A stretch of 29,810 nt of DNA. Origin: a virus. Position numbers and translations under genes: made by a program. Every line of letters starts with the position of its first letter. Position 1 is the first letter of the stretch. The notes below the pieces were generated by a model. That model worked only from the letters and a program-made list of their open reading frames with translations, ran no database searches and was not told where the DNA came from. The stretch lies in the IMG/VR virus record IMGVR_UViG_3300033571_002544, positions 1 to 29,810 of that record. One strand, written 5' to 3'. This document shows positions 1,818-20,278 of the stretch, piece after piece.

Positions 1818-4724
1818 TTAAGTGTTTCCGTAATAGAAGTTTAGTCTATCCCCTATGTTTATAATTATATTGTCATTTGGGATAATCCCTTCTACATCGG
1901 GAATACCTGTCCCAAATGCATTTAATTCATCTAATACTAATTTAACTTGATAACCATTACTAAACCCATTAGAAAGTTTATCAAGTAAAGGTCTTATATT
2001 AGAGAACATCATCCCGCCAATGTCATTAATCTTTAATCTAGTATAAATATCATACCACGTTAGGAAACCAAATAGTTCAGCATTTTCTGGATTTTCAGAA
2101 AAATATTCATTCAAAGCGGAAGTTAGTTTATTAGCTAAGTTAATTAAATTAGCTTCTGGCGACTGAACCCTAAGGCTTGATGCTGGTTGTACGCTTGTAT
2201 ACTCTCCACTTAAATAATAAGATTTCTCAAATGCAGATCCGCTGGGGTTGTAATTGTAAATAAATCCGTGATAGTCATTATTAAAATATTGTTCATACAG
2301 TCCAAAGTAATTGCTACTTAATTCAGAGTAAAGTCTAGTTTGTTCTAGGGCGGGTTTATCCACTTCTAAATTTGAAGTATAAATACTAGGTTCTATTTTA
2401 ATAACTCTTGAGACCGTTGAGTTTGAGTAATCCTGATAAACAGATTGACCGTTGAATGGATTATGGAAAGACCCACACCCAGGACTTAAGATAATTGCTT
2501 GGGGTAAATTTCTAAGCATTATCTTGTCTGTGTTTAATGTGCGATTCTTTCCAAAAGATCGTAAATTAAATTCATTAAATCTAAAATTTATAGAACTGCT
2601 ATTACCAGCATACTGAATAAATGGATCTCTAAAATCTATATTTGTTTTTATAACATTAAATCCATTATTCCTGGAATGGGCTACTGCTTCTTCATCTGTC
2701 AATCGTGTATAAATTGCAGAAGTAGTAGTTATTACTGAGTTAACATTTACAATATCCCCCACCGATACTAGGTCTAATTTAAAATAAACTGGAGCCAAGT
2801 CTGCTGAAGGATTATAAGTAGCTGTAAACTCATGTACATTTTGTAAAGAGCTAACTGTAAGAGTAATGGCAGGGTCAACATTTAAAACTTTTAAAATATT
2901 GTACCTATCTCTCGGCTCCAAGTAATAAGCACCCGACAATGAATTGAAGGTCATTAAAGGGTACTGGGCACTGGTCGAAAACATAGAAGAGAAATAATAC
3001 CCAGCCCCGTCTCCAAAGTTTAAAGCAACTCCACTAGCGGGATTAACTAAAAGCTCAACGGATTGTTCCGTTGGAATTCCTAAATTATTAGTGTACAGTT
3101 CGTATAGTTCCCCATCATCCTGAAGAACTGACACATAAGTTTCTAAGTCTTCCGCTAAGAATCTCATTCTTTTAAAATCATCATTTTGCTCTATAGAATT
3201 TTCAGAAGATTCATAATTTGGATTCTTTGATAATTGTTCAAAAATAGCAAAAGCTAAGTTTATTGTGTTGTTATTTTGTCCAGTTTGATTGTAAGTGTAT
3301 AGTGGGTCTGCTAACTGTTTTTCATACAAAGATATAAAAAAGTTTGCGTCAAACTCACCCATTGTTCCGCGAACTAAATGACTCTTAATAGCTTTGTAAA
3401 ATTGAGCGGAGTCTATTTTAGTATTTCCAACCCCATTTAAATTATTTATTGCTTGGAGTAAATTAGGTTTTAAACTAGAAGATATTTTTTCAATTGTTAA
3501 ATTAGTAATATTCTTCTCATCCCAAGACGCAGTGGTATTTTCTCTTTGCAAGAAATAAGAAACTTCTTTTGCAACTTCGTTTGAAAACACACTAAGATAC
3601 AAATCATTTGCAACAAATGAAGTTTCTTGAGTTACCGTTGTATTAAAAAAATTGTAGTATGGATGATATATTCCGGGGCAAGTTTCGCTGTCAGTGGATG
3701 AGGATGCATATCCTTGGTATACTGGATCAGCTACATTAACTTCTAATGGTTGTCTTACCTGTGAAGCTTGTTGAATTAACGAAGATTGCTGTGCAGCATT
3801 TGTTGTAGAAGTTGGAGAAGTTGTTATCTCTTGTATTTGTTGTGCTTGACGCAATCTTAATGAATTAACTCTTCTAAAGTATGCTTCGTTGGCAGCATTA
3901 ATTGATGCTGTTCTTTGAGCTATGGTAAGCGGTTGATTAAATAATGATTGCTGTGGTCCTAAAACTTGTCTTTGAGCATACTGAAATGACACCGAAGATT
4001 GTGGTTGGTTTGTAATAACTTCATTAGCTTGTAATTCAACAGAGCCTATGCTGGTGGTTACAACAGAGCCGCCAGTCGGTTCTTGATTGGGTTCTCCTAT
4101 TGGCTCTGAAAGACAATTGTTTGAACTATTCTGGCTTCTACATGGCGAAGCTAAACATTCGGCTTGAGAGTTGTGAATACATCCAGGTTGTGCTTCTATT
4201 TCATCTGGATTACATAGCGTACAATTTCTAGCTATTGCAGCTATCCTTCTTGCTTCTGGGGGCTGAATATTTTTGTCTTGCTGACAGTATATCGGAGTTG
4301 AAGTACAGCGATATTTTGTAACTCCTCCTCCTGTTGTCGGACCTGGGGTTCCCGGCCCAGTACCAGCAGGACCTCCCGTTGTTGGGCCAGCAGGCCCCCC
4401 TGTTGTAGGACCTCCTCCTCCTCCAGCAGGACCTCCCGTTGTTGGACCAGCAGGACCTCCCGTTGTCGGACCAGCAGGACCTCCTGTTGTTGGACCACCC
4501 CCAGGAACTCCAGGGGGTTGAGGAAGTCTAGGTATTGTGGGTGTTATTGGAGGAGGTTCTACGGGGGGAGGAGGACATCCAGGTATTGGAAAGGTTGGTA
4601 CTTCTGAGTTCCCCTGTGGTGTATAAGTTGGAGGTAGAGTATTAGAATTTTGTGTAGGCTGCCTTGGCTCCGTTCCAGGGACATAATCTCCACATGGAGA
4701 AATTCTAATCTCTAAGGATGTCAT
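1818..4724 (-). CDS. Large virion adhesin/fibre protein with Pro-rich stalk and GPTTGGPA repeats (968 aa)
   Basis: No enzymatic motif is recognised. The architecture in order: a short N-terminal strand (MTSLEIRISPC); a Pro/Thr/Gln-rich stretch to about residue 74 including PPPPVEPPPITP; a Gly-Pro-Thr repeat region (75-134); a cluster of eight cysteines (140-204, including CTLC); an Asn/Gln-rich helical region (about 220-330, with YAQRQ and RRVNSLRLRQAQQIQ); then a long C-terminal part (about 345-968) that alternates helical and beta segments. This looks like an exposed, stalked structural protein, between the PAAR tip gene and the other fibre-like genes, so a baseplate-borne adhesin is the likely role. 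No SD is evident; the start lies in AAATAATTTAAATG. Alternatives are a tail-tip decoration or a secreted-type surface protein. Confidence 0.7.
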   Translation of the reverse strand: MTSLEIRISPCGDYVPGTEPRQPTQNSNTLPPTYTPQGNSEVPTFPIPGCPPPPVEPPPITPTIPRLPQPPGVPGGGPTTGGPAGPTTGGPAGPTTGGPAGGGGGPTTGGPAGPTTGGPAGTGPGTPGPTTGGGVTKYRCTSTPIYCQQDKNIQPPEARRIAAIARNCTLCNPDEIEAQPGCIHNSQAECLASPCRSQNSSNNCLSEPIGEPNQEPTGGSVVTTSIGSVELQANEVITNQPQSSVSFQYAQRQVLGPQQSLFNQPLTIAQRTASINAANEAYFRRVNSLRLRQAQQIQEITTSPTSTTNAAQQSSLIQQASQVRQPLEVNVADPVYQGYASSSTDSETCPGIYHPYYNFFNTTVTQETSFVANDLYLSVFSNEVAKEVSYFLQRENTTASWDEKNITNLTIEKISSSLKPNLLQAINNLNGVGNTKIDSAQFYKAIKSHLVRGTMGEFDANFFISLYEKQLADPLYTYNQTGQNNNTINLAFAIFEQLSKNPNYESSENSIEQNDDFKRMRFLAEDLETYVSVLQDDGELYELYTNNLGIPTEQSVELLVNPASGVALNFGDGAGYYFSSMFSTSAQYPLMTFNSLSGAYYLEPRDRYNILKVLNVDPAITLTVSSLQNVHEFTATYNPSADLAPVYFKLDLVSVGDIVNVNSVITTTSAIYTRLTDEEAVAHSRNNGFNVIKTNIDFRDPFIQYAGNSSSINFRFNEFNLRSFGKNRTLNTDKIMLRNLPQAIILSPGCGSFHNPFNGQSVYQDYSNSTVSRVIKIEPSIYTSNLEVDKPALEQTRLYSELSSNYFGLYEQYFNNDYHGFIYNYNPSGSAFEKSYYLSGEYTSVQPASSLRVQSPEANLINLANKLTSALNEYFSENPENAELFGFLTWYDIYTRLKINDIGGMMFSNIRPLLDKLSNGFSNGYQVKLVLDELNAFGTGIPDVEGIIPNDNIIINIGDRLNFYYGNT
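4323..4502 (-). repeat. In-frame tandem repeat encoding GPTTGGPA units
   Basis: A degenerate 24-nt unit is repeated about five times, interrupted by short poly-Gly inserts, giving protein residues 75-134 of the 968-aa protein. Units differ mostly at third codon positions (gttgtt versus gttgtc, gga versus ggg), showing selection on the peptide rather than very recent slippage. The repeat is not strict Gly-X-Y collagen. It is likely a flexible linker between the Pro-rich stalk and the Cys cluster. Confidence 0.85.
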
Positions 4725-4729
4725 TTAAA

Positions 4730-7090
4730 TTATTTCAATGTTATTACCGAGTTACCATTTCTATTATTTAAGAATTGATTTTGTCCCCATCCAGATGGGT
4801 AAGCAATAACATCAAAAGTTACTGAAGGTAATGGGCAAGTTCCATAATTAGAAAATCCCTGATACGCATTGGGGGTAGTTGATACATTTTTTACAATTGC
4901 TGGAGGGATCACGCTAAATTTATTGTAATATGGAATATTAGTGTTATTAATAAGATCTCTGTTAGATTTAATTGTAAGTTGCTCTCCTTGCCAAGCAACA
5001 TGAATTCCCAAGGATACTGTCCCATCGGATCTTCTTTCTTTTGTAGTAAAAATACCACCTTGACCTAGATCCGCTGGACAACAGTTCAGGTATTGTACTC
5101 TTACATCCAAATCCACTGCCCATTGAATTTGTTGACTATTAATTAATAATTCTTTTGTTACCCAGTGCAAAGTAAGATTATCTTTAAATCTATTCGTTGC
5201 ATTAGTTTCAGTTATTCCATAAGTTGAATTTTTTATAAAACTTGGAAATGATGCGTACGCAATAGCGTCTGCATTAAAAATTACAGATCCGTTAGCTGTT
5301 GGCGGCTGTTCTGCATATGAAAAATAATTTATATAATCTCCAAGTTTTGATCCTATTGAATCGTTAGGAGATAACAATGATCTAGCCCAATGAGAGTAAT
5401 CCCAAGTGGGTAATCCATCTTGAATTGGAACTTGATAGAAAAATTCTTCTCTTAATTTTAAGGTAGCTTCATTAGTCGGAATGCCAGGGTACTTAGTTTT
5501 TATGTATTTTAACAAGACATATTCAGGACCATAAGTAGACCACCCACCGTATATTTTACCACTGTAAACTATTCTTGGAATTTGTTGTACTACTGGACTT
5601 TGAGTACCACCTCCACCACCACCTGTTGAAGTTCCTTGGGATATTAGTTCAATACGATTTGATAATTCTTTAGCAACAAGATCAACATAGTTTTCACTAG
5701 CGACAGGGTTAGCTACTGACACTTGAGGATGAGCAGCGGCAAGACCAGATCTTTCATTAAATGTTAATTCTGTTGTTCTAAAGAACGGGCGAATATCTAC
5801 AACATCCGCAGTGTTTATTATTGGAGTATTATTTGGGTTAAGAGCAGCAGTTTTCTTAACAACAACATAAGCTATAGGAAGAATTGATTGCCCAAGTAAT
5901 GCAAAATCATTATCAGATAATGTTTCTGACATCATAGGGGCTAAATTCATTAAATCATCTGGGGATGGGAAAGAACCCTTTACTCCATTAAATCCGATGT
6001 TTTGTCCAAGTTCATCTGAAATGTTTGGAATAATCATCTGGTCTGTTTCAGATTCTAAGGTGCGAACAGCATTTAAGGGAGTATTGACATTATAAGTTCT
6101 GTTATCTAAACTTATACCAATTCCCGCACCCCTCACAATCCCTAATTGAGGGCTGTAAATTTTAGTTGGAGTGTTGCTGCCGCTAGAGAATTTAAATATT
6201 GTAGCGGCTGAAGCATCAACTGGTTTAGCATAAATAAATACTAAATCAATTCTTTGAGTAGCTGAGTTTAAAGTTTGTCTTACGCCATTCTCATCAACGT
6301 ACCAAAAATCTTCTTGACGGAAAGATGGAATTTCAATTGATAACTCTTCGGGAATATCAACTACTGAAGTTCTAGTTACGCCTCTCCACTTCTTTATAAA
6401 GTTAGATTCGTGCCATGGGCTATTAATAAATCCATCAGCGTTGTTTTCTAAAGCTTTGGAATTTACAGAGCTTACAGCTAAGTTATAAATATACAACTGA
6501 CCATCAAAACTAGGGTATGGTATCTCGGGTGTATTAGCTGTACTTATTTGGTTATACCCAGGAGCATTAGACTTTAGATATTGAGAAGCATTATTTAAAT
6601 CTCTTGAAGCTCTAGTAAAGCATCTCTCAATTAAACCGTTCATCCCCATCGCATTCGATTCTAATTGAGTTTTAAATGTATTTAAAATACTTTTTAAAGT
6701 TCCGTCTCTATTTGTTTTAAAACTCCAAGAGTCTAAATACGGATCGTCGCTTAACTTTGAAATTATTTGTAAAGGCTGTAGATTAAATACGTCATTTATT
6801 CTAGCTGTAAATCTTCCTGGACGGACATAAACTACGTTATCCGAGTCATTTACATAAGGTTGGAGTTCGCTAAATGAAGCTCTACCCTGTGCAAGACTAT
6901 TATTAGTTATATTGCTTGTATTAAATATTTGAGTATATTCAAGTTTAGACAATTGATCTTTTAACCAGAGATCATTTTCTTGAAGTTGTTTTAGTGGAAT
7001 ATTATCTACTTCATAGTAAATAGGATCATTAGCCTTAAAGTATCTTACTGGGTCTGTAAAACGGAACGAGCTTTCAGAAAATTGAACCAT
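4730..7090 (-). CDS. Tail-fibre-like virion protein with N-terminal baseplate anchor (786 aa)
   Basis: The N-terminus (residues about 12-50) has RYFKANDPIYYEVDNIPLKQLQENDLWL in two overlapping motifs, closely comparable to the start of the 1199-aa beta-helix protein, so it is likely the virion-attachment segment. A central region (about 275-465) holds IDLVFIYAKPVDASAATI and VDIRPFFRTTELTFNERSGL, which I associate with fibre-like structural proteins of T4-like marine phages (recollection, not searched). A six-glycine linker at about 490-495 separates it from a C-terminal beta-rich domain (about 505-786) with several Trp and a CC pair. Its ATG overlaps the upstream stop as TAATG. A receptor-binding or fibre-connector role is inferred. 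Confidence 0.72.
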   Translation of the reverse strand: MVQFSESSFRFTDPVRYFKANDPIYYEVDNIPLKQLQENDLWLKDQLSKLEYTQIFNTSNITNNSLAQGRASFSELQPYVNDSDNVVYVRPGRFTARINDVFNLQPLQIISKLSDDPYLDSWSFKTNRDGTLKSILNTFKTQLESNAMGMNGLIERCFTRASRDLNNASQYLKSNAPGYNQISTANTPEIPYPSFDGQLYIYNLAVSSVNSKALENNADGFINSPWHESNFIKKWRGVTRTSVVDIPEELSIEIPSFRQEDFWYVDENGVRQTLNSATQRIDLVFIYAKPVDASAATIFKFSSGSNTPTKIYSPQLGIVRGAGIGISLDNRTYNVNTPLNAVRTLESETDQMIIPNISDELGQNIGFNGVKGSFPSPDDLMNLAPMMSETLSDNDFALLGQSILPIAYVVVKKTAALNPNNTPIINTADVVDIRPFFRTTELTFNERSGLAAAHPQVSVANPVASENYVDLVAKELSNRIELISQGTSTGGGGGGTQSPVVQQIPRIVYSGKIYGGWSTYGPEYVLLKYIKTKYPGIPTNEATLKLREEFFYQVPIQDGLPTWDYSHWARSLLSPNDSIGSKLGDYINYFSYAEQPPTANGSVIFNADAIAYASFPSFIKNSTYGITETNATNRFKDNLTLHWVTKELLINSQQIQWAVDLDVRVQYLNCCPADLGQGGIFTTKERRSDGTVSLGIHVAWQGEQLTIKSNRDLINNTNIPYYNKFSVIPPAIVKNVSTTPNAYQGFSNYGTCPLPSVTFDVIAYPSGWGQNQFLNNRNGNSVITLK

Positions 7091-10000
7091 TAGTTATCTC
7101 TTTGTAGATCAAAGGTATTTGGAGATTTTACTCCAGTCTCCGTGTAGGAGCTTCCAACTTTAACATTAGTATATGGGTAGTAAATTGATACTAGCTTAGA
7201 ATTATTTGATTTTCCTACAGAGCAATGCTTGGCATTAGCAAATGTTTCAGAAGATGATTCATCTAGTAAAATTTTTACATATCCATTAGTATCTGTTATT
7301 GTATTACCATAATAGTAGCCTGAAGCAACTATTTGATTTGATGAATTTCTTTGTAGTACGCTAGGATAGAGAGCACTAGCTCCAAAAGCACTACAAATTA
7401 ACGAAGCTGAAGGTTGATATCCTTGAGAATATATTTGAGGAATTACCTTGTAGGTTTCTGTATTTATATTAGTTAATACATTAGCAACGGGATTTATGGA
7501 GAAGTATAATCTAAATGGACCATAGTTATCCGCAGTTGTTTTTCCAAATGGGTTAGCGGAAGCAGCAGCATACCCAAAGTAGTCTAGAATAGACGCACTG
7601 CTTGTGTCGGGTGTAGAGCTTGGCAACCCAGAAGCTGGGATATTAGCACCGCTTAACCACATACCAGCAGGTCCAACATACCCAGCAGCCTTTGGATAAA
7701 GTCCACTCACTGATAAGTAAGAGGCTTTTAGTTGGGAGTTATCAGCTATGTTCCATATGAATAGCTTATAACACAGTCCACCATTGGTTGCGGCAATTGT
7801 ATTATCGTAATACGGGGAAGATGCATTCCACCAACCGCATGGGAAATTTACATTATGGACATTAACTAGACTTCCGTTTAGTGCTCTTACGCACATACCC
7901 CCGTTAGTAACTGAGCTATAATCATTTGAAGCTGTGTTAGTATCTTTTAGATAATAAAGATTTCTATTATTAGCAGCTAATGAGAAACTATTAGCCAGTG
8001 CTGTTACATTTGCTGCTCCTGGGAATGCATTTGAATCATAAGCTGTAAATGAATAAGTAGGAATTGGATTTGGATAGAACTGAAGACTTCCCGCACTGAC
8101 ATAAGCTTCAATTGAACTTAAATCTCCATAATCAAAACCACTTGTAACTCTATTACTATAGTAAGATCCAGTAAACTCCCAGTTGTACGCGAACGACCCT
8201 AAATCTCTAGCATTAAAAGAGGATTGCTTATCTACTACAACACAAGCTCTTGTGCTGTGTAATTCGACAGCAGTGTGGTTAAGCCTGTCAGCAAGATTGA
8301 ATGAGCTAACATCTAAAGTATTTTCCCCATTAAGTCTTTGAGGGTTGATATTGATATTAGATTTTTCTTCTGCTAAAATATCAATTCCATATTGAGCAAT
8401 TAAAGTAGGACCATTAAACTCAAGGGTTGAGTTATTGCCAGCATAAGCTGCGGCAATATTTTTTTGGTAGCCTCTATTTTGAGGTCCAATTATTTTTGTA
8501 GCTCTGTTCTTAGTTCCTATTAGTGTTGCTTTGGAATTATTAAGGACTGATAGTTCTGAACCTTTACAAGCTGTATCTGAATCTAAATAAACAGAGTGTT
8601 CTGAATTTCTAACTATGTTAGGAGCTACTAATACTGCTTGAGAATTATTTGATAACTCTATTCCAGGAACAAGCTCTCTATCCCCTAATGTGGGATTCTT
8701 AACTCCTATTGGATTATATGTGAAAAACTCATCGTAAATTGAATCCATTCCAGAAGTCATTACTGGTAATAGCTTCGATGAGTTAAGAACAATATGCTGC
8801 CCATTTTGCAAGAAGTGTAGCGGAGAGTGGTCTTCCGAGATATTTACATAATCAATTAAATTTTTATTGTAAGTTATATTTGAATTGTTGGCAAGCATTC
8901 CAACTTTTTGATTATAAATAAAACAAGCTTTATCAATTTCAAATACAGAAGAGTCTAATTTTATTCCATAAGAGTTTTCTATAAATGCTAGTTTCCCATC
9001 AAAAGAAATTCTTGAATTATTTGATCTAATTCCATGCTCTATGTTGTTATAGATATCCAGATAAATTGTGTTTAAATTGTCAGGAATTCCTTTAGAATTT
9101 TTACAAACCTCTCCACCTTCAAATGTAGAATTATTTAATATAATTCCATTAGCGTTTTTGCTAAATTCAAAAATGCAATTTTTGTTTGCGAATGGTAAGT
9201 AATCTGTTATTTGAAAAGGGGCACCTAAAGATACAGATTTTTCATAAACGTGTTGTCGTTCAATTTCTTCTTGAAATGTTCTAACTGAGCTTACAGTAAT
9301 TTTGCTATTATTAGCAACGAGTCCTGCACCCTCATCAAAAGTAGTTAGATAATTTCCTGTAGAGAAAGAATCGTATAAAGATTTTGAAGACCATGGGCCA
9401 GTCTTCCTAGTTCCATTAGAATCATAATCATAATTCCTGGTTGATATACAATTTCTAAGTAATTTAACTTCAGAGTTGTTAAATACTAAACCAGCTTTTC
9501 TATGACGAGTAGAGACAATATTTTCTAAATGAACATTCTTTGAATTATTAACTTCAATACCATAATTGTTATTTGTTCTTGAATATCCGCTTCCATCCAC
9601 AAAGAAATTTCTTATAAAAATTGGTCCTTCACAATTATTTACAATTATTTTGTTTATTCTATTTCCATAAAAAACAGCATTGTACCCGCTATCAAATGGA
9701 TTTGATCTTGTTGAATACAGATGAGTATTATTTTGTAAATAATCAAAAGTACTAACATCGTAAGTTGAAATGTATTGATTGGCATCTGAATTTAAATCAT
9801 AAGACTTAAATGTAAACCAATCAGCGTAGTTGGCCCCGGCATTATTGTATAAAGAAACATTATTATTAGATGCTAGTATAAGATTTGATTTTGTATAATT
9901 TGAATTATATTCAATAGTATCTAGCGGAATCGCAACCCAAGTGGAATTCATAGCGTGAGCTAAACTAACGAATCCATTTAATGTTGAACTTAATCTAGAA

Positions 10001-10689
10001 TCAGAAACAGGATTAAATTCTTGAGAGTTATCTAATCCGCTACAAACTCTGGAAGATAAACTTAAACAAGAAGCATCTCTAAATTGAATTTTAGGATCAA
10101 ATACATATTGTAAATCTATGTAGACTTCCGAGAGGACCCCATAGTTAGTATTAATTCCTGAAATATAATAGTATGGATTTGGGCTAGTATTGTCAGATCT
10201 CCCAGCGTGTAGAGCTATTCTGCCAGGAAGTGTTCCTGCCGCAAAACCTGCGGAAGCTTCAGAATCCGCTTTGGCAAAGTTTCTATTTATAATTTCAAGG
10301 GATCCCTTTGGACCAAACTTGAAATTATTTAAAACCATTTCCCCTAAGTCACCGAAGTTTGCAATCTCTATGAGTACAGGGAAATTAATCATCTCTGGCA
10401 GAGCGGCTATCGCAGCACTTACAGTTCTGAACACATTCTTATTGCAAGCGATATCTGAGTCTGAAGCATCTGCTGAGACAGCAAGAGCAATACCTGGAAT
10501 GCTAGAGGTTGGGAATCCCAGCTTCTCCCAGAGGTAGTGAGTCCGTTCTTCTAAATCGTAAACAGGCATATTATCCTGTTCCCAGTTATAGAAAGCACTT
10601 GAATCGAACTTCGTAACCTTATCGGTCCAGCAGTGCATCAGCTTAAGGGCTGTGCTGTTTACAGTGTAAATATCGCTTGTTATAAACAT
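7090..10689 (-). CDS. Right-handed beta-helix tail protein with Asn-Asn-Ser ladder (1199 aa)
   Basis: An N-terminal anchor (residues 34-57) reads FYNWEQDNMPVYDLEERT plus LWEKLG, matching the fibre-like protein downstream. A short domain follows with VFRTVSAAIAALPE, typical of the capping region before phage beta-helices. From about 340 to 800 the chain is a parallel beta-helix: the tripeptide NNS recurs at residues 391, 404, 460, 519, 557, 601, 681, 717 and 752, with DSS/NSS variants between, each in the same local pattern of hydrophobic-NNS-x-hydrophobic. The C-terminal third (about 800-1199) is Tyr/Ser/Asn-rich and beta-like. No catalytic motif stands out, so glycan binding or an unrecognised lyase is possible. 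It is 2 nt downstream of the 203-aa gene, without a visible SD. Confidence 0.78.
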   Translation of the reverse strand: MFITSDIYTVNSTALKLMHCWTDKVTKFDSSAFYNWEQDNMPVYDLEERTHYLWEKLGFPTSSIPGIALAVSADASDSDIACNKNVFRTVSAAIAALPEMINFPVLIEIANFGDLGEMVLNNFKFGPKGSLEIINRNFAKADSEASAGFAAGTLPGRIALHAGRSDNTSPNPYYYISGINTNYGVLSEVYIDLQYVFDPKIQFRDASCLSLSSRVCSGLDNSQEFNPVSDSRLSSTLNGFVSLAHAMNSTWVAIPLDTIEYNSNYTKSNLILASNNNVSLYNNAGANYADWFTFKSYDLNSDANQYISTYDVSTFDYLQNNTHLYSTRSNPFDSGYNAVFYGNRINKIIVNNCEGPIFIRNFFVDGSGYSRTNNNYGIEVNNSKNVHLENIVSTRHRKAGLVFNNSEVKLLRNCISTRNYDYDSNGTRKTGPWSSKSLYDSFSTGNYLTTFDEGAGLVANNSKITVSSVRTFQEEIERQHVYEKSVSLGAPFQITDYLPFANKNCIFEFSKNANGIILNNSTFEGGEVCKNSKGIPDNLNTIYLDIYNNIEHGIRSNNSRISFDGKLAFIENSYGIKLDSSVFEIDKACFIYNQKVGMLANNSNITYNKNLIDYVNISEDHSPLHFLQNGQHIVLNSSKLLPVMTSGMDSIYDEFFTYNPIGVKNPTLGDRELVPGIELSNNSQAVLVAPNIVRNSEHSVYLDSDTACKGSELSVLNNSKATLIGTKNRATKIIGPQNRGYQKNIAAAYAGNNSTLEFNGPTLIAQYGIDILAEEKSNININPQRLNGENTLDVSSFNLADRLNHTAVELHSTRACVVVDKQSSFNARDLGSFAYNWEFTGSYYSNRVTSGFDYGDLSSIEAYVSAGSLQFYPNPIPTYSFTAYDSNAFPGAANVTALANSFSLAANNRNLYYLKDTNTASNDYSSVTNGGMCVRALNGSLVNVHNVNFPCGWWNASSPYYDNTIAATNGGLCYKLFIWNIADNSQLKASYLSVSGLYPKAAGYVGPAGMWLSGANIPASGLPSSTPDTSSASILDYFGYAAASANPFGKTTADNYGPFRLYFSINPVANVLTNINTETYKVIPQIYSQGYQPSASLICSAFGASALYPSVLQRNSSNQIVASGYYYGNTITDTNGYVKILLDESSSETFANAKHCSVGKSNNSKLVSIYYPYTNVKVGSSYTETGVKSPNTFDLQRDN
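8428..9519 (-). repeat. Degenerate beta-helix coil repeats (NNS turns)
   Basis: This section encodes residues 391-754 of the 1199-aa protein, in which NNS or a near variant occurs eleven times. Spacing is irregular (13 to about 60 residues), as expected when one or two coils lie between marked turns. DNA identity between units is low, so the repeat is one of protein structure rather than recent duplication. Confidence 0.65.
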
Positions 10690-12277: not shown

Positions 12278-15200
12278 TTAGTTATTTAGGGTTATGGCGT
12301 TTATAAAGTTTCCACCAGAAGATTTAGTAGTGGGATTCCATTCGGGGCTTTCGACATAGTTTATTCGACTTCCTCCGCTAGCCTCATACACCCCACTTGT
12401 GTAAGATCCAACTCTGCTGGCATAACCGAATGAGGAATACGCCCCAGCGATCTCATTAAAGTATTTTATTATATTAAGTAAATGAGTTCTGCTTAGATCA
12501 ACTCGATACTCTTTGCAGTACATCTCCCCAACTGGAGTCCCATTTAATTTTCCAGTAACAAATGGTTTAGACCATTTATTTAATGTTAAATCTATTAAAT
12601 TTAAATCATAGAATAAAGTAAATTTGTTATTGTTTTTGCAATTACTAAAAATTTCAATAACATAATTTTGATTTAGTCTATGCACATTGTTTGATACATT
12701 ATCAAAATAATCTTGAGGAACTTCTACAAATCTATTTCTGGTATTAAAGATTAATTCAAAATTAGTAAAGTCTGATTCAGCCAACGATGCAATAACATCG
12801 TTTTCTTTATTAGTATTATTAATGAGTCGGAACCTTGAACATCTAATGCTTGAACTCTCTAAATTTCTAGCTAGCTCTGGCATATTTAGTACATGGCAAT
12901 ATGTGTCAACTAAGTTACTTTCTAGTACAGAGGTAACACTATGCTGCACCCATGTCTTATCTTTGGTAAAAGTCCAGATCTTACCACGCTCTGGTTTGGT
13001 GTGAATCCAAACACTTAATGAATCGCCCCCGAAAGTTTCACCATTAAATGTTGAGATTAAAGACTTTAAATTTATTTTGAAATCATGTTCAGGAGTTAGG
13101 AAATTAGTAGAGACATCGTAACCTAATCCTGAGTCTACAGAATATTTCTTAATATCAAACGCAAATCTGCTGACGGAATTTAAAGACTTTTGTTTAATTA
13201 AAGTATTCTCATGCAATAGAGGATTGTATCGGTAACCAACTCTATTACTTTTATCTAATCTTATTACTGAAAATGAGTTTCTAGTGCTAGCACCAGATGG
13301 GTGAATAAACTCTATGTGGGATAGTATTCCTGAGTTTCTGAACTCATTTATTCTAGTTCCTCCATCAGTGTACATTAGAACATCATTTATGGTTGAAGCT
13401 GCATAAGTTCCTGATGCGTAACCAGAAGCTGAGAATAGTTCACTAGTTGCCTTAAAGTCCCTTACGTCTGCTAAACTAGATGTAATATATTGAGGATATG
13501 AGTTTGTAAAAGATCCATTCTCAGACAATTTTGAGTTAACTAGAATAGATCCAAAAGTGTGCCCAAAGATCGTAGGCCCATCTAAAATAGTTGTAGTTGG
13601 GATGGCTCGGTGTCTTTGAAAATTGTGAGTATACTCATAGTATAACTTTTGAAAATCTTTTCCAAATCTATAAGTTGTATAATCATCAAACGAATTTGGG
13701 AAAGCTCCACTTAATTGAGTTGCACTATTTGCATAGCTTTGGAGAGTGTTCTTCCACCAGCTATCTTGTGAGTACTCATCAAGATGATCGTCATAGTAAG
13801 CAGAAGCTTGCATTACTTTAGCTTGCTCTTGGATGTAATGCAGTGTGGCTACAAATGGGTGCAACTGCCCTCGATCCCAAAGATAGTCTACCCTCACTCC
13901 TCGCCTAGTTACATACCCATCTTCAATAGGAGCATCAAATAGGAATAATATTTTTGAATTGTACACATCTGGATTTGTTAGTGTTGAGTTTGCTCCAGAT
14001 GCCCAACTAATGAAGTAATCTTTTGTTGCATTAGTTAGATACATTCCATTTATTTTAATGTTTTCTAATGTTATATTAGATGGTCTACTGCTCGCATCTC
14101 TCCCCCATATTCTATTATTGTAAATTGCGGATGTATTGTATTCAGATCCACTTACCGTAATATCCCTAAATACTGCGCCAGAAATAAATCCAAATTCATT
14201 TCCACGGTCCCCAAGTTGAGGATCTGATGGATTGTCTGCAAATGGATCGGGGATATTACCAATCCAAAATAATTGAGTATCAATTGGATCCTCTACACGA
14301 ATATCACTGACAGTGATATTCTTAAGTCCCCAGGAAGTATATGTTAGATTAGGGCTATAAGCGTACAAGCTAGCCGATGCTCCTCTATCTACTGAAGACA
14401 AATCATTACATAAACGTATACAAGTTTCTGAATTTTGGCGATTAACAGAGTAAGATCCTATGTCACAATCATAAATTTTTATTGGATATGCGTGTTCTTC
14501 GTCAGAAAGAGCAGAATCATTGTAGTAATATACTCCATAGTAAGACACTACCAAAGGACCATTATTTACACTATAGAACTGACACCCGCTTATTGTCGTT
14601 GCGCCACCAGCACTCGTTCTAGCATAATAAAGTCCTTGATTTAATGGAAGAGAGGCAAAATAATTAATCTGAGCTTGAAATGTTGGACTTCCTGCATCAT
14701 TAGAGAAAGGGTAAATACAATCATCTGCTGTTAAAAGAAAACAATCTCTAACATAACAACTTTTTGTTGTTGGGTCGGGGACAGTGTAGATGCCATCTGT
14801 ATTGTACGACCAGGGACTTAGTATTTTTACATTCTCTACATTATTTACTCCTCTTATGTTATAAACTGGAGTATCTATAATTGTTATATCTTTTACATTT
14901 ATGCCAGAAGGAATATTATCTACTGTTGGAAGAGTGACATAATTACTTGGACCAATTTCAAATTGACTTACTATTTGATCGTATTCTGCGTTCCCAAAGA
15001 TTGATATAGCTCCTAAATCTCTAAGCCCAGGATAGGCAGCATTATGAGCGGATAAAGTTAATAATTTTTCCTTAGGCATATGTTGGACAGATAATATGCC
15101 AGGACCTTTAAATGTTATATTATGTCTATCTCGCACATCAAAAGTTCCTATTACATAAGAACCGCCATCTAAATATATTGTAAATGGTTGGCCTTCAACA

Positions 15201-15799
15201 TACCCGTAATGTTCATAACTTGAAAAATTTACTCCGTATAAAGAAGTAAAAACTCCAACCGCAGTAGTACCATAAACTCTCTCCACATGACCACCCGTAG
15301 CGGTAGGGGCTAGCGATGATACATAGTGAATGCCTGGGCCAAAATACAGATGAGCGTCCTGAGACGATGGCTTAAAATTATCACAAAATAAAAATAAAGG
15401 ACTTGAAGTTTCGTTATTTATAGTAGCCCAGACTTTATCATTTGGACTCATTTGAATATACGCTTTACCCGCAGTTACAGAATATTCAAAATTCTTTGAA
15501 GCTGGTCTTAATTTTATATCTGTGATAGCCTCATTTAATTTAGTTATTCTGACTGTGGTTTCCCCTGAGGCCCCAAATGTTAAGAAGCTAAGTTCTGGAG
15601 ATGATCCACTCACCCAAAGTTTATTTCTTGCTACTGGTTCAGAGCCAGTAACTCCATAAGCAGCTATAGCTTTTCTAGATCTACTAAAAGTAAAAGCTGA
15701 GAAATAAGTGTTGGTGTCATCATCGTAGACATCTACCCAGTACTTGGTAGAACTAAGTGCTCCTATTCCGGCTCCTGAGGGTGCGTAAACTTCAATCAT
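12278..15799 (-). CDS. Tailspike with GH28/GH49-like right-handed beta-helix, putative glycan depolymerase (1173 aa)
   Basis: An N-terminal beta-sandwich-like part (about 1-150) precedes a beta-helix (about 150-600). Entry motifs are FTIYLDGGSYVIGTF (206-220) and ITFKGPGILS (228-237), as seen at the start of polygalacturonase and dextranase/isopullulanase helices. The helix carries YNTDGIY with D335, then 24 residues on ADDC with D359 and D360. In clan GH-N these three Asp act in inverting hydrolysis. The GH28 G-H-G motif is not evident, which favours a GH49-like or divergent enzyme. The C-terminal half (600-1173) has SLSVWIHTK (about 928) and two copies of a GYAS...RIN segment. It follows the gpI-like wedge gene directly, the usual place for a tail appendage. 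It probably digests host capsule or exopolysaccharide; the substrate is unknown. Confidence 0.75.
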   Translation of the reverse strand: MIEVYAPSGAGIGALSSTKYWVDVYDDDTNTYFSAFTFSRSRKAIAAYGVTGSEPVARNKLWVSGSSPELSFLTFGASGETTVRITKLNEAITDIKLRPASKNFEYSVTAGKAYIQMSPNDKVWATINNETSSPLFLFCDNFKPSSQDAHLYFGPGIHYVSSLAPTATGGHVERVYGTTAVGVFTSLYGVNFSSYEHYGYVEGQPFTIYLDGGSYVIGTFDVRDRHNITFKGPGILSVQHMPKEKLLTLSAHNAAYPGLRDLGAISIFGNAEYDQIVSQFEIGPSNYVTLPTVDNIPSGINVKDITIIDTPVYNIRGVNNVENVKILSPWSYNTDGIYTVPDPTTKSCYVRDCFLLTADDCIYPFSNDAGSPTFQAQINYFASLPLNQGLYYARTSAGGATTISGCQFYSVNNGPLVVSYYGVYYYNDSALSDEEHAYPIKIYDCDIGSYSVNRQNSETCIRLCNDLSSVDRGASASLYAYSPNLTYTSWGLKNITVSDIRVEDPIDTQLFWIGNIPDPFADNPSDPQLGDRGNEFGFISGAVFRDITVSGSEYNTSAIYNNRIWGRDASSRPSNITLENIKINGMYLTNATKDYFISWASGANSTLTNPDVYNSKILFLFDAPIEDGYVTRRGVRVDYLWDRGQLHPFVATLHYIQEQAKVMQASAYYDDHLDEYSQDSWWKNTLQSYANSATQLSGAFPNSFDDYTTYRFGKDFQKLYYEYTHNFQRHRAIPTTTILDGPTIFGHTFGSILVNSKLSENGSFTNSYPQYITSSLADVRDFKATSELFSASGYASGTYAASTINDVLMYTDGGTRINEFRNSGILSHIEFIHPSGASTRNSFSVIRLDKSNRVGYRYNPLLHENTLIKQKSLNSVSRFAFDIKKYSVDSGLGYDVSTNFLTPEHDFKINLKSLISTFNGETFGGDSLSVWIHTKPERGKIWTFTKDKTWVQHSVTSVLESNLVDTYCHVLNMPELARNLESSSIRCSRFRLINNTNKENDVIASLAESDFTNFELIFNTRNRFVEVPQDYFDNVSNNVHRLNQNYVIEIFSNCKNNNKFTLFYDLNLIDLTLNKWSKPFVTGKLNGTPVGEMYCKEYRVDLSRTHLLNIIKYFNEIAGAYSSFGYASRVGSYTSGVYEASGGSRINYVESPEWNPTTKSSGGNFINAITLNN
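12350..13432 (-). repeat. Two copies of a GYAS...GG[TS]RIN segment inside the tailspike
   Basis: Residues 790-825 (GYASGTYAAST, then GGTRINEF) and 1123-1150 (FGYASRVGSYTSGVYEAS, then GGSRINYV) align as a diverged internal duplication, about 330 residues apart. The intervening piece may therefore be one of two related C-terminal modules. Nucleotide similarity is weak, so the duplication is old. Confidence 0.45.
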
Positions 15800-15805
15800 A
15801 AATTA

Positions 15806-18220
15806 TTAGTTTGGAATCCAACCTCTTACAGGGAAAGTGTTACTTACAATCAATCCAGAGTATATACTAGACGAAGACAAGTCTTCACATTTACCGTAAA
15901 TTGCTGGTATATTATTATAGTCAGTTATAGGTACAAACTGCATAGAAGAGGGTATTAGTCCTAAAGGCAGGAATGTTCCACTAAGACTTCCATTGACAAT
16001 ATAATGGTTTAATTGAGTCGGCATATTAAATCCGCCTCGGTCGTAATATCCTTCCTTCGGTAATATAAACTTAAGATCTCTTCTTCTGTGATTTCTTCTG
16101 GGTAAATTAGCAGTTGTAGCAGTTGGAGATCTTAAACTATCAGAAATACTATCCACCCCTCCCCTTGAGAACGTGGCAACTGAGGTTGGAGTAAGACCTC
16201 TTTTATAAGTTGACATTGCAAGGGCGGAGGCTCCATACCCAGCTATGGCTGCTCCACTTGAGTATTTAATTTGAGAATAATCCGCTTTAGGTACATTTAT
16301 AATTGGGAATTTGTAATCAGCGTATGACTCAAAAAATTCTTCTACTGACGATCTTGCAATCACATCTGGGTAAGCTTTTGCCGGAGAAAAGTCTTGAATA
16401 GCTTGAGAGATTAAATTTAAGATTTCGCTTGAATCAGCTTCTAGTGAAGTTTTTCCGAAGTTAAAAGAAGAAGTATCTAGCAAAACTTTAAAATGAGATG
16501 ATTTTCCATTCCATAAAGGAATGTAATCAATTCTTACGTTAGTAATATCTTTAATTACGTCAGACCAATTAGGTGGATACTCCGCACTTGGAGTAAACAT
16601 TAGCCAACTATTTTTTAAAGAATAATCTTCATCGGTCCCTGTAGTTAATCTTCTAATGTAATTTCCTACTTGGTTTGCAAAATTTTCTGACACCCCAAAG
16701 CAAATTAATCTATCAATAATTGCTTCAATCATTTGCTCCGTAAGAATTACGGAAGTGTAATAGGGTATCTCTTCAAACGGAGGAACTTTAGAAATTGATC
16801 CACGGTAATTAAATACAAAGTCTGAGGAACGTAAAGGGAAAGGCTTTCCAGCTAGTAAAAAGTTTTGAGGGAATTCATAAACTGTATCTTTTATAATTTT
16901 ATCTACACACAGCTTAATGTTCTCGTCCATACTACTAAAGTTGTAAGCCGGAATAGATAGGCTCTGTGAAATCTGGGGTGTCCAAGTATCAAAGCCTTTT
17001 AAATAACTGGAGTCAGTAGCCAGAGCATATTGAATTAAGAATGGGACATAAGATTCCCAAAGTTCTGTTATTTTTGAACTAGCGTCAAATACATCTTCTC
17101 CAAACATAGAATCTGCAACAAGCTTTAGACATTTCTTAGTTCCCATTGTTTTATAAATGTCTACCGCATTAGCTAGCTGAAGCCTCCATCTATCAGGCTC
17201 GGATCCAAAGAGTCTCCACCCTATTAGATCAGCCAGCAATGGAAGATATTCGTCTGGGCATTCTCCTAGATCGTTTAACGCTTCTATCCTATCTATTTGA
17301 TTTGAATAGTCTGCGAAAGAAAAAGAAAAGGCTTTAAGTAATTTTAAGAATGGACCTTGTAATTTTTTATCAGATAGTAAATAAGAGTTTTCTAAGTAAT
17401 CATCTATAGCATTTTTTACTCTAGTATCCCCGTCATCAATATAGAGAGGGGAATAGAGAACATCTATTAAAGTACAGAGTTTATCTAATTGCTGGGTTCC
17501 GCTTGTGAAGGTAGTACTAGTTATACTATTAACAGGTCTAAAATTACTTGGTAATACGCTTAACGATGACCAAGATTGAGTTGTGTAATTTCTCCAAATG
17601 TAATTAGTAAATCCTTTTATCCCGTCGTTTAAATTTATTTTTTGACCAGTAAAAAGTTTTTCAATCAAAGTATTTAAAACATACGAAGATGGATTGTATG
17701 CAAGTGAAGGTGGCCCACTAAGATTTAAAAAGTATAACCAGGATAAATTTGTAATGAGATAATTATGGTTGCTACTTGCGGACCCGCCATCTAAGAAATC
17801 TAATGTCGGAGCATTCAACTTTATTCCAGGTAGGAGTGTTCCAGTTAAATAATCTGAGAACTCTGCACTTGAATTAAAGTCTTTAAATGATGTTCCTAGG
17901 GGTATTAATATTTTTCTTTCAAAATCATTTGTATCTAAATCAGTTAGATTGTTTTGTTTAACAAAAAATTTAGACACCCCGTTTGCGGTATTTATTGAGC
18001 TATAAAGTGTACCAGCTATTGCGCTTATAGGGAGAATAGTTCCAATATTTCCGATACAAATTAAATTACTATTTATTACTTGGTCTAGTATATCTATTTC
18101 ATTTTGTTTTAAGTTATAGTCTTCTTCAAAATATAAAGATGGAACAATATACTTAAATACTTCACTGTAGTTTGATTTGTGAAATTGCCGGTTATCAATA
18201 AATTTTACTGGACTAGACAT
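15806..18220 (-). CDS. Baseplate wedge protein with P2 gpI/T4 gp7-type domain (804 aa)
   Basis: Tail protein I family members link the gp6-like wedge to peripheral fibres in contractile tails. The diagnostic segment is at residues 295-375: DRIEALNDLGECPDEYLPLL, then LADLIGWRLF, EPDRWRLQLANAVDIYKTMG and TKKCLKLVADSMFG. It follows the family pattern of a short Asp-rich lead, the L-IGW core and the R..L..A...Y..KGT helix. The first 290 residues and the last 400 have no recognised domain, making this much longer than P2 gpI (about 180 aa) and closer to large wedge proteins such as T4 gp7 and Afp12. Its ATG lies 8 nt inside the gp6-like gene, a frequent pairing in baseplate operons. The Arg-rich RRNHRRRDLKF near 715 is unusual. 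Confidence 0.82.
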   Translation of the reverse strand: MSSPVKFIDNRQFHKSNYSEVFKYIVPSLYFEEDYNLKQNEIDILDQVINSNLICIGNIGTILPISAIAGTLYSSINTANGVSKFFVKQNNLTDLDTNDFERKILIPLGTSFKDFNSSAEFSDYLTGTLLPGIKLNAPTLDFLDGGSASSNHNYLITNLSWLYFLNLSGPPSLAYNPSSYVLNTLIEKLFTGQKINLNDGIKGFTNYIWRNYTTQSWSSLSVLPSNFRPVNSITSTTFTSGTQQLDKLCTLIDVLYSPLYIDDGDTRVKNAIDDYLENSYLLSDKKLQGPFLKLLKAFSFSFADYSNQIDRIEALNDLGECPDEYLPLLADLIGWRLFGSEPDRWRLQLANAVDIYKTMGTKKCLKLVADSMFGEDVFDASSKITELWESYVPFLIQYALATDSSYLKGFDTWTPQISQSLSIPAYNFSSMDENIKLCVDKIIKDTVYEFPQNFLLAGKPFPLRSSDFVFNYRGSISKVPPFEEIPYYTSVILTEQMIEAIIDRLICFGVSENFANQVGNYIRRLTTGTDEDYSLKNSWLMFTPSAEYPPNWSDVIKDITNVRIDYIPLWNGKSSHFKVLLDTSSFNFGKTSLEADSSEILNLISQAIQDFSPAKAYPDVIARSSVEEFFESYADYKFPIINVPKADYSQIKYSSGAAIAGYGASALAMSTYKRGLTPTSVATFSRGGVDSISDSLRSPTATTANLPRRNHRRRDLKFILPKEGYYDRGGFNMPTQLNHYIVNGSLSGTFLPLGLIPSSMQFVPITDYNNIPAIYGKCEDLSSSSIYSGLIVSNTFPVRGWIPN

Positions 18221-19814
18221 AGGTAAAGTTTAAAGTATAATTATTTAGTTGAATTATTTCGTTGAAATTGACTTGCACAGTTTCTGGTACATTATCTATT
18301 GTTGCAAATCTAACTTCCTCTACTTCAAAAATAGAATACATTAGATCTTGTGGAATAAATGATTTTGCAAAATCATTGTTATCCATATTGAAGAAAGCTT
18401 CTATTTTAGATCTAACCTTTTGTCTAATTACAGTCTCTTGGTATTGATACCTTTTATCTAAACGTAAAGTTATTTGGAGGTCCAATGTTCTTATCAGTCC
18501 ATCAACAATAACAACCTCATCTGTTAGCATCTTTTTATCCTCCATCGCTTGAAGGATTTGACGCTTATACTCAGGTGTGGCTTTTCTAAGTTGTAGGTTA
18601 TTAGCTTTTTCTAAAACATACACATCAATAATATTAGCAGAGGAATACGCTCTTCTAGTAACAGCAGTAGCTTTGCCGATTGAGCCGTAAGAACTTATGT
18701 AACTGTTTACAAAAGCTTTAAAATCTGTAAGAGTAACTAATCTGCCTTGTGATCTAAACGCTAAAGGTCCATATCTTTTTACATTATCTATAGTCTCTGC
18801 GTCTGCTCCACCAGTGCCTTGGCTTGTGTTCTCTAATGTAGCTTGGTATGAGGTAGTTGCCATCCCATCTGTAAGTGTAAGGGATACTGGAGCATTTACT
18901 ACACTCTTTCCAATGTTACCTCTAGTTCCTCCACCAATTCTATAAATAACTGTATACTGGTCTCCTGCTTGAGGGACCTTTCCTAGGTTATTGTCTCCAA
19001 ATACAACTGTACCTCCATAATTATCATTTGATAAAAATTGGAATACTTTATCGTTGGAGCCAGAAGCGTAAAAGATGTTATCTACTTGCCGGTATCCACC
19101 ACTTGTAGAAGAATCTCCAGTTATAAAAGCTTGAACGCTTCCTTCAATAATTGGAGATTGCTGTAAAGGAACATTTTTTAATGATTCAGTATCTGCAAAT
19201 GATCCTTGCTCTATTACTAAAGATCCTTCTAATAATACAAGATTAGTTAAGGTTGTATTTGTGTTTTTTTCTGACTCGTAAATTACAATGTTGCCAGTTG
19301 AATTTGCTGAGTCAATATCCCCATCAGCCGCGACTTTGTAGATTGAATAAGTTATTGGGAGACTATCTTCTGGGGAAGTGATTGTTAAGACTCTATTCTC
19401 AGGGGTGATTGTAACATAAGAATTAGCATTAGCTAACCCAGGGGAAGGTAGTGTTAGTTTAGCATCGGCTGCCGCAGCGATTGGACCTTTCATTCGTATT
19501 CCGATCAACTGCATTAAATTCTTAACACTCTCTCTAGATCTAGCTGTCCTTAAGAAATTTTCGTTTGCTAGATAGTCAGCTTTGTAGGATAGAACGTGTC
19601 CCATATAGGCAACAAGTTCAAGCAACATTATCCCAAAGTCTGATTCAGAAAAATAATTGTAGTCTAAAGGGTAAACAGCTTTTATATAATTAAGAAGATC
19701 ATCCCTTAAAGATAGAAAGTCTGTGGATGCAAAATTAATAAAGTTTTGCTTGTCAATGTCCTTAACATTAGCAAGCTTCATGAAGTCAGAAGTTACAGTA
19801 CCTTTAAAAGCCAT
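18213..19814 (-). CDS. 6: Baseplate wedge protein, gp6/baseplate J family (533 aa)
   Basis: Gp6-like proteins form the iris ring of the contractile baseplate that opens on infection. The N-terminal hallmark is SDFGIMLLELVAYMGHVLSY followed by ADYLANENFLRTARSRESV and LMQLIG (residues 58-105), as in T4 gp6 and P2 gpJ. A central beta domain ends in FGDNNLGKVPQAGD and YRIGGGTRGN (272-300). The third hallmark, AETIDNVKRYGP plus SQGRLVTLTDF (339-365), matches the conserved J-family core. Length is between P2 gpJ (about 300) and T4 gp6 (660). Start and upstream stop share an A (TAATG), coupling it to gp25. Order gp25-gp6-gpI is the classic wedge cassette. Confidence 0.93.
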   Translation of the reverse strand: MAFKGTVTSDFMKLANVKDIDKQNFINFASTDFLSLRDDLLNYIKAVYPLDYNYFSESDFGIMLLELVAYMGHVLSYKADYLANENFLRTARSRESVKNLMQLIGIRMKGPIAAAADAKLTLPSPGLANANSYVTITPENRVLTITSPEDSLPITYSIYKVAADGDIDSANSTGNIVIYESEKNTNTTLTNLVLLEGSLVIEQGSFADTESLKNVPLQQSPIIEGSVQAFITGDSSTSGGYRQVDNIFYASGSNDKVFQFLSNDNYGGTVVFGDNNLGKVPQAGDQYTVIYRIGGGTRGNIGKSVVNAPVSLTLTDGMATTSYQATLENTSQGTGGADAETIDNVKRYGPLAFRSQGRLVTLTDFKAFVNSYISSYGSIGKATAVTRRAYSSANIIDVYVLEKANNLQLRKATPEYKRQILQAMEDKKMLTDEVVIVDGLIRTLDLQITLRLDKRYQYQETVIRQKVRSKIEAFFNMDNNDFAKSFIPQDLMYSIFEVEEVRFATIDNVPETVQVNFNEIIQLNNYTLNFTYV

Positions 19815-20278
19815 TAGACAATATCCAGTTTAATTTCAAAAGCTGTATCCTGCTCTGCCTTCAGAATACAAAATAATTTTACTACTAAAAAATTTCCACC
19901 TTGAGGAGTTGACGTTGAACCTGGGAATACCTGAAGTTTGGTTACCAGTACGTTAGCAGCGTATTTTGAAAAAGATTCTAAAATTTCTCTCTTAATCTGA
20001 CTCAAGGTAGCCTGATCTAGTGGCTCCATTAAATAATTTTTTAAGTTAGTTCCGTACCCAGGAAGCATAACTCTTTCTCCACGGGCGGTTAAAAGTAATT
20101 GCCTTAATTGACCTTTAACTAATTCAACGTCCGATCCTTGTTTAAGAAATTTTCCACTATCAATATCCCCCATCGGAAATACAAACCCATAGCGTTTCAA
20201 TGACTTCCTTTTATTTAAAAAGGAAGCTGCTTTTGGTATTCCACCGCCATAGATTTCTGTGGTATTTTGATAGACCAT
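19814..20278 (-). CDS. 25: Baseplate wedge protein, gp25/GPW family (154 aa)
   Basis: Gp25-like proteins join the wedge to the first sheath ring and are the most conserved component of contractile tails, including T6SS TssE and Afp9. The core signature is GERVMLPGYGTNLKNYLMEP (residues 67-86), preceded by QLRQLLLTA and followed by a helix with QIKREILESF. The length agrees with the family (about 130-150 aa). An N-terminal extension of some 30 residues (KRKSLKRYGFVFPMGD) precedes the fold. Two bases separate it from the LamG-protein gene. No lysozyme activity is expected despite the old family name. Confidence 0.93.
   Translation of the reverse strand: MVYQNTTEIYGGGIPKAASFLNKRKSLKRYGFVFPMGDIDSGKFLKQGSDVELVKGQLRQLLLTARGERVMLPGYGTNLKNYLMEPLDQATLSQIKREILESFSKYAANVLVTKLQVFPGSTSTPQGGNFLVVKLFCILKAEQDTAFEIKLDIV

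Follow-up and report, generated by a model that had tools for sequence, protein, structure and literature searches.

A putative GH49-like glycan hydrolase as a probable insert in the gp7/P2-I-like wedge protein of a T4-type phage baseplate

GH28 and GH49 are glycan hydrolase families of a single clan, and GH49 enzymes are monomers. The catalytic triad of GH49 has been named as D376, D395 and D396 of Dex49A (PMC6723167). In phage tailspike depolymerases the anchor is N-terminal and constant, whereas the enzyme is C-terminal and varies (PMC6966330). The gp7-like part of contractile systems is lateral and a hotspot for re-engineering (PMC8894135), and in XM1, whose gp15-gp16-gp17 are the counterparts of T4 gp25-gp6-gp7, flexible parts of gp17 take part in spike binding (PMC10457771). 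The subject here is a stretch of viral DNA of 29,810 nucleotides (the window, meaning the whole stretch analysed), whose source is a freshwater virus of bacteria and in which one minus-strand ORF (12278..15799, 1173 aa) encodes, as we read it, a GH49-like enzyme together with the C-terminal half of a wedge protein of the baseplate. That three of its Asp residues form the catalytic site of a GH49-like beta-helix glycan hydrolase, inserted at a fixed slot of a gp7/P2-I-like wedge protein of a T4-type myophage, is the explanation that we favor, with a probability of roughly 70%.

A first-pass annotation had drawn attention to D335 in NTDGI and D359-D360 in ADDC as a catalytic pattern of the clan GH-N type, and it had the positions right. 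NTDGI comprises residues 333-337 (14789..14803, minus strand) and ADDC residues 358-361 (14717..14728, minus strand), so that 14720-14803 runs exactly from N333 to D360. The motifs said to lie upstream are there too, YLDGGSYVIGTF at residues 209-220 and GPGILS at 232-237. From D335 to D359 the spacing is 24, that from D376 to D395 in Dex49A being 19, and the GH28 G-H-G motif is indeed nowhere in the sequence of the ORF; to our knowledge GH49 enzymes likewise do without it. An alignment of 23 rows, in which the window enzyme is joined by seven phage-encoded relatives and fifteen from bacteria, is invariant only at P99, F138, G156, G232, G234, D335, D359 and D360, which leaves the three Asp, 23 times out of 23, as its sole invariant polar residues. 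A profile-profile alignment independent of this one pairs the same residues. Judged by these alignments, the Asp motif is more than chance.

Single-sequence searches fail with this enzyme because of its divergence. The enzyme part (residues 1-634; 13898..15799, minus strand), identified by the structure model, fold search and phage-only profile described below, matched no family of Pfam, PHROGs or NCBIfam, and no solved structure in a single-sequence phmmer search of the PDB; the Pfam GH49 model PF03718 matched nothing anywhere in the window at E ≤ 10, nor did the GH28 model PF00295 match the enzyme part at that threshold. Weak matches to DNA primase, kojibiose phosphorylase and Flp_N were rejected as chance. 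Relatives were instead reached stepwise, starting from the conserved neighboring baseplate gene (17 viral loci) and going on with alignments of the enzymes, which were searched in viral contigs and then in bacterial genomes, the latter search giving 14 loci with a best E of 6e-19, a value that refers to the candidate stretches. When a profile of seven phage enzymes was compared with all PDB sequences, the top match was the Penicillium dextranase Dex49A (E 4.9e-6), followed by a GH28 exopolygalacturonase at E 0.089, and the alignment to Dex49A (1OGM) placed NtDg at T375-D376-G377 and the Asp pair at D395-D396. The phage profile matches the bacterial one at E 1.2e-43, and the latter in turn matches GH49 chains of the PDB at E 1e-30 to 7e-42, GH28 chains scoring 2e-8 or weaker. 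A Persicobacter protein, itself found as a weak relative, matches GH49 structures directly (about 5e-12). As an aside on the bacterial side, a Chitinophagaceae MAG (L036:2092-5837) has two adjacent GH49-like genes, the first of which includes an additional fused domain; they belong to a larger bacterial GH49-like family mostly missed by Pfam.

The AlphaFold2 model made with an alignment (pTM 0.81, mean pLDDT 71.8) has an N-terminal beta-sandwich at about residues 1-145 and a right-handed beta-helix at about 147-620, with pLDDT in ten-residue blocks of 79 around D335 and 93 around D359-360, and below 50 in several loops; a model made without alignment (pLDDT 31) was discarded. In a Foldseek search of the PDB, GH49 structures take every one of ranks 1-7 (E 4e-17 to 5e-14), with polygalacturonase (GH28) next at 9e-5. 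VIA-align gives GH49 chains Z 23.7-26.5 over 441-454 residues, spanning 1-621 and including the N-terminal beta-sandwich, and GH28 Z 17.4 over about 300 residues of the helix only. A BFVD search returned generic beta-helix matches only (best E 8e-5). Since bacterial GH49-like sequences were in the alignment behind the model, the fold evidence is not independent of the homology evidence. The beta-helix foreseen in the first-pass annotation is thus what is predicted, as one part of a GH49-type two-domain architecture, and from alignment to Dex49A and isopullulanase we infer that D335, D359 and D360 would meet in one groove.

Might the domain nonetheless be a GH28-type, polygalacturonase-like hydrolase? 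The best plasmid tblastn match (E 9e-5) is a Bacteroidota protein that is annotated GH28 and scores with PF00295, and GH28 structures do match the helix with Z 17. However, GH49 is ahead in every profile and fold test (4e-17 against 9e-5 with Foldseek, Z 26.5 against 17.4, 4.9e-6 against 0.089 with the profile), only GH49 covers the N-terminal sandwich, and the GHG motif is missing from the window, all of which makes a GH28-type enzyme very improbable. A position closer to GH49 than to GH28 is supported, and kinship at the level of the clan is well supported. The enzyme is not filed as GH49, since neither the curated model nor the substrate-site residues fit; going by sequence, it would work like GH49 as a member of a diverged sister group, a distant relation of fungal and bacterial dextranases.

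Within VNNGPLVVSYY (residues 411-421; 14537..14569, minus strand), Y420 falls at the position of Dex49A W425, a substrate-site Trp conserved in GH49, according to counts over the alignment column and the residue list in PMC6723167. Tyr is present there in 8/8 phage enzymes, where 15/15 bacterial ones have Trp, and the Lys that follows the Asp pair is lost in 7/8 phage enzymes, being kept in all the bacterial ones but one. The GH49 Asn417 position is Asn412 in the window and is not kept in all phage copies; the same holds for the T-D-G motif seen in the window. A maximum-likelihood tree puts the seven myophage enzymes together in a clade (99/98) that, with the enzyme of a podophage (L021) added, is again a clade (100/99) and stands apart from all bacterial enzymes; L021 is on a long branch, so its placement is less sure. 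The clade has two branches. Both are found in L010 and in L040, as single copies in an identical order, and the window has one only; a likely interpretation is a tandem pair of old standing from which a copy was lost later. The suggestion that the enzyme represents a new, diverged, phage-borne group is supported by a clade of its own, by the replacement of Trp by Tyr throughout and by the want of a Pfam match. Given the changed substrate-site residues of the phage clade, dextran is probably not the substrate.

Non-catalytic beta-helix phage adhesins exist, and a beta-helix that is inactive and only binds a host glycan would accord with the replacement of Trp by Tyr across the eight phage enzymes and the loss of the Lys in seven of them. 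Against this, none of the phage copies has lost any of the three Asp, although most other positions have diverged to 20-50% identity, and what relatives carry at the same place instead is other enzymes, carbohydrate-active or oxidative. Mere binding is accordingly an unlikely role, and we continue with a GH49-like hydrolase.

What is the enzyme attached to? Upstream of its ORF the gene order is gp25-like, gp6-like and then P2-I-like. The gp25-like baseplate wedge protein (19814..20278, minus strand) matches phrog_261 at E 1e-11 and phrog_43 at 2.5e-11, and the gp6/J-like wedge protein (18213..19814, minus strand) matches phrog_219 at E 2e-41 and Baseplate_J at 2.5e-5. The 804-aa product of 15806..18220 (minus strand) is taken as the P2 gpI/T4 gp7-like N-terminal half of the wedge protein because of gene order and relatives, PF09684 (Tail_P2_I) reaching only E 0.0088 and 16.4 bits, below its cut-off of 20.6. 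That ORF ends in VSNTFPVRGWIPN, after which come two in-frame stops, tandem TAA codons that lie one codon before the new ATG of ORF 12278-15799. Residues 635-1173 of the latter (12281..13897, minus strand) are 44-67% conserved in related phages and are elsewhere continuous with the P2-I-like protein; residues 1-634 are not so conserved. One long readthrough polypeptide was considered, the two ORFs being in frame, but was rejected in view of the tandem stops and of differing frames in L010, L011 and L015. With the wedge protein split into two ORFs at the insertion, its halves would have to assemble as separate chains. The label 'tailspike' used in the first-pass annotation is imprecise in that only residues 1-634 are enzyme and residues 635-1173 are a gp7/P2-I-like wedge part.

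Some other features of the window may be recorded here. A 1199-aa protein with repeated NNSxI motifs (7090-10689, minus strand) looks like a right-handed beta-helix and has no family match; PAGPTTGG-type repeats in 24/60-bp units (4363-4497) are near the N-terminus of the 968-aa ORF 1818-4724; and most ORF starts lack a clear Shine-Dalgarno and have A/T-rich stretches before them, as in Bacteroidota, which is a possible hint of the host.

In related contigs the junction between the P2-I-like and C-terminal parts is variously occupied. It is empty, the two parts being a single protein of 1317-1379 aa, in seven of them (L014, L016, L046, L048, L049, L050 and L052) and is likewise unbroken in L017 and L053, which are cut by contig ends, making nine in all, in which the linker is about 5 to 25 residues long. 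A sialate-O-acetylesterase-like (SASA) domain is within one polypeptide at this place in L003, L005 and L018 (PF03629, E 6e-10 to 9e-9), and an esterase starts at the junction in three contigs with both flanks complete, or five if truncated ones are counted. L011 has a GH49-like and an SGNH-like domain there and L010 a GH49-like, an SGNH-like and a second GH49-like one, the SGNH-like assignments having been made by eye with Pfam nearly silent. L015 has a galactose-oxidase-like gene (PF09118, E 2e-17) and then a second domain fused to the C-terminal part. The borders are VSNTxPxRG(W) on the left and DRGQLHPF or a close variant on the right. The junction recurs in contigs of different metagenomes, though the counts are of contigs and not of independent events, as some viral records are fragments and some near-identical (L046/L052 and L048/L049/L053, for instance). 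A T4-type gp23 capsid protein (PF07068, E 1e-68) is encoded in the record with L005, a relative that bears the slot. The galactose-oxidase-like protein at the slot of L015 (L015:14054-17680) has 1208 aa; an oxidase at a phage tail is unusual.

It is fair to ask whether there is anything here beyond an ordinary tailspike gene that follows a gp7-like gene, its C-terminal part a mere virion anchor. The window, L010, L011 and L015 do encode the enzyme separately from the P2-I-like gene, in an ORF that lies downstream of it, and the XM1 spike gene likewise comes after the gp7-like gene (PMC10457771). Yet the nine unbroken contigs have this C-terminal part joined straight to the P2-I-like protein, and in the three esterase contigs with complete flanks the esterase is inside one polypeptide at the junction. 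An ordinary tailspike therefore seems improbable to us, and we read the junction in these sequences as an enzyme exchange slot.

The same enzymes also occur as free genes. Where the slot is empty in the L052 record, a GH49-like plus SGNH-like cassette is a free gene among fibre-like genes, and L040 and L041 have GH49-like enzymes as free genes before a tail sheath gene whose product shares 49-54% identity with that of slot-bearing records. A broader proposal, which we hold to be somewhat better than an even bet, is that the wedge protein of a group of freshwater T4-type myophages has an internal enzyme socket, either empty or occupied by non-homologous modules, with cassettes that may also be free tail genes; host-surface enzymes would then be swapped as wedge cargo and not as tailspikes, and the GH49-like modules would, as part of this proposal, be a new phage-specific family. 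A 980-aa GH49-like plus SGNH-like protein (L061:2322-5264) is the product of a free gene in a phage with an empty wedge slot. In a podovirus contig (L021:3158-5506) a GH49-like domain precedes, in a fusion, the tail tubular protein, which is T7 gp11-like (PF17212, E 2e-36); this is a second, unrelated way of fixing such an enzyme to a tail.

How might the assembly work? We infer that the enzyme would be on the outer side of the baseplate, in one copy per wedge, with the two wedge halves of the window phage assembling as separate chains. One Asp would protonate the glycosidic oxygen and the other carboxylates would activate water, so that hydrolysis would proceed by single displacement with inversion, as it does in GH49. 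The substrate would be a host capsular or exopolysaccharide, the cutting of which would let the baseplate reach the cell surface.

By tblastn with the window protein, its L010 relative, the podophage enzyme L021 and a bacterial GH49-like protein, no relative was found in 50,697 phage records, and scanning viral contigs with the bacterial GH49-like profile revealed no further viral relatives. The 595-kb phage LR756511, with which the gp25-gp6-P2-I order is shared, has neither the enzyme nor the C-terminal part by tblastn. In the open-access literature no description was found of phage GH49 or of enzymes inserted in gp7-like wedge proteins. With a GH49-like enzyme in no named phage record searched, confirmation would add a type of glycan hydrolase to the phage arsenal and provide a source of enzymes for freshwater bacterial polysaccharides. 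The slot raises a testable question: can contractile-tail wedges carry swappable enzymes directly, and how does a split wedge assemble?

Comparison with known systems brings out both the familiar and the unfamiliar. Dex49A (1OGM/1OGO), AoDex (6NZS) and isopullulanase (1WMR/3WWG) have, like the window enzyme, a beta-sandwich and a right-handed beta-helix, an Asp with an Asp-Asp pair 19-24 residues on, and T-D-G around the first Asp. The window enzyme differs from them in its identity of about 15%, its spacing of 24 rather than 19, its long insertions, its fusion into a virion protein, its Tyr420 for Trp425, the loss of Lys after the Asp pair and the lack of a match to Pfam GH49. The GH49-like proteins of Bacteroidota, Verrucomicrobiota and Planctomycetota (L025-L038) share both domains and the triad, but outside a phage context. 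P22, Sf6, HK620, CBA120 and Klebsiella depolymerases also have a right-handed beta-helix on the tail and a likely glycan target (Z about 13-16), whereas the window enzyme is between two constant parts, one upstream and one C-terminal, and is GH49-like in fold and catalytic layout. With T4 gp7, XM1 gp17 and P2 gpI the window has in common the gp25-gp6-gp7 order, a putative P2-I-like domain and a probable role in spike or fibre attachment; what sets it apart from them is an exchangeable insert between the P2-I-like half and a C-terminal part of 540 aa.
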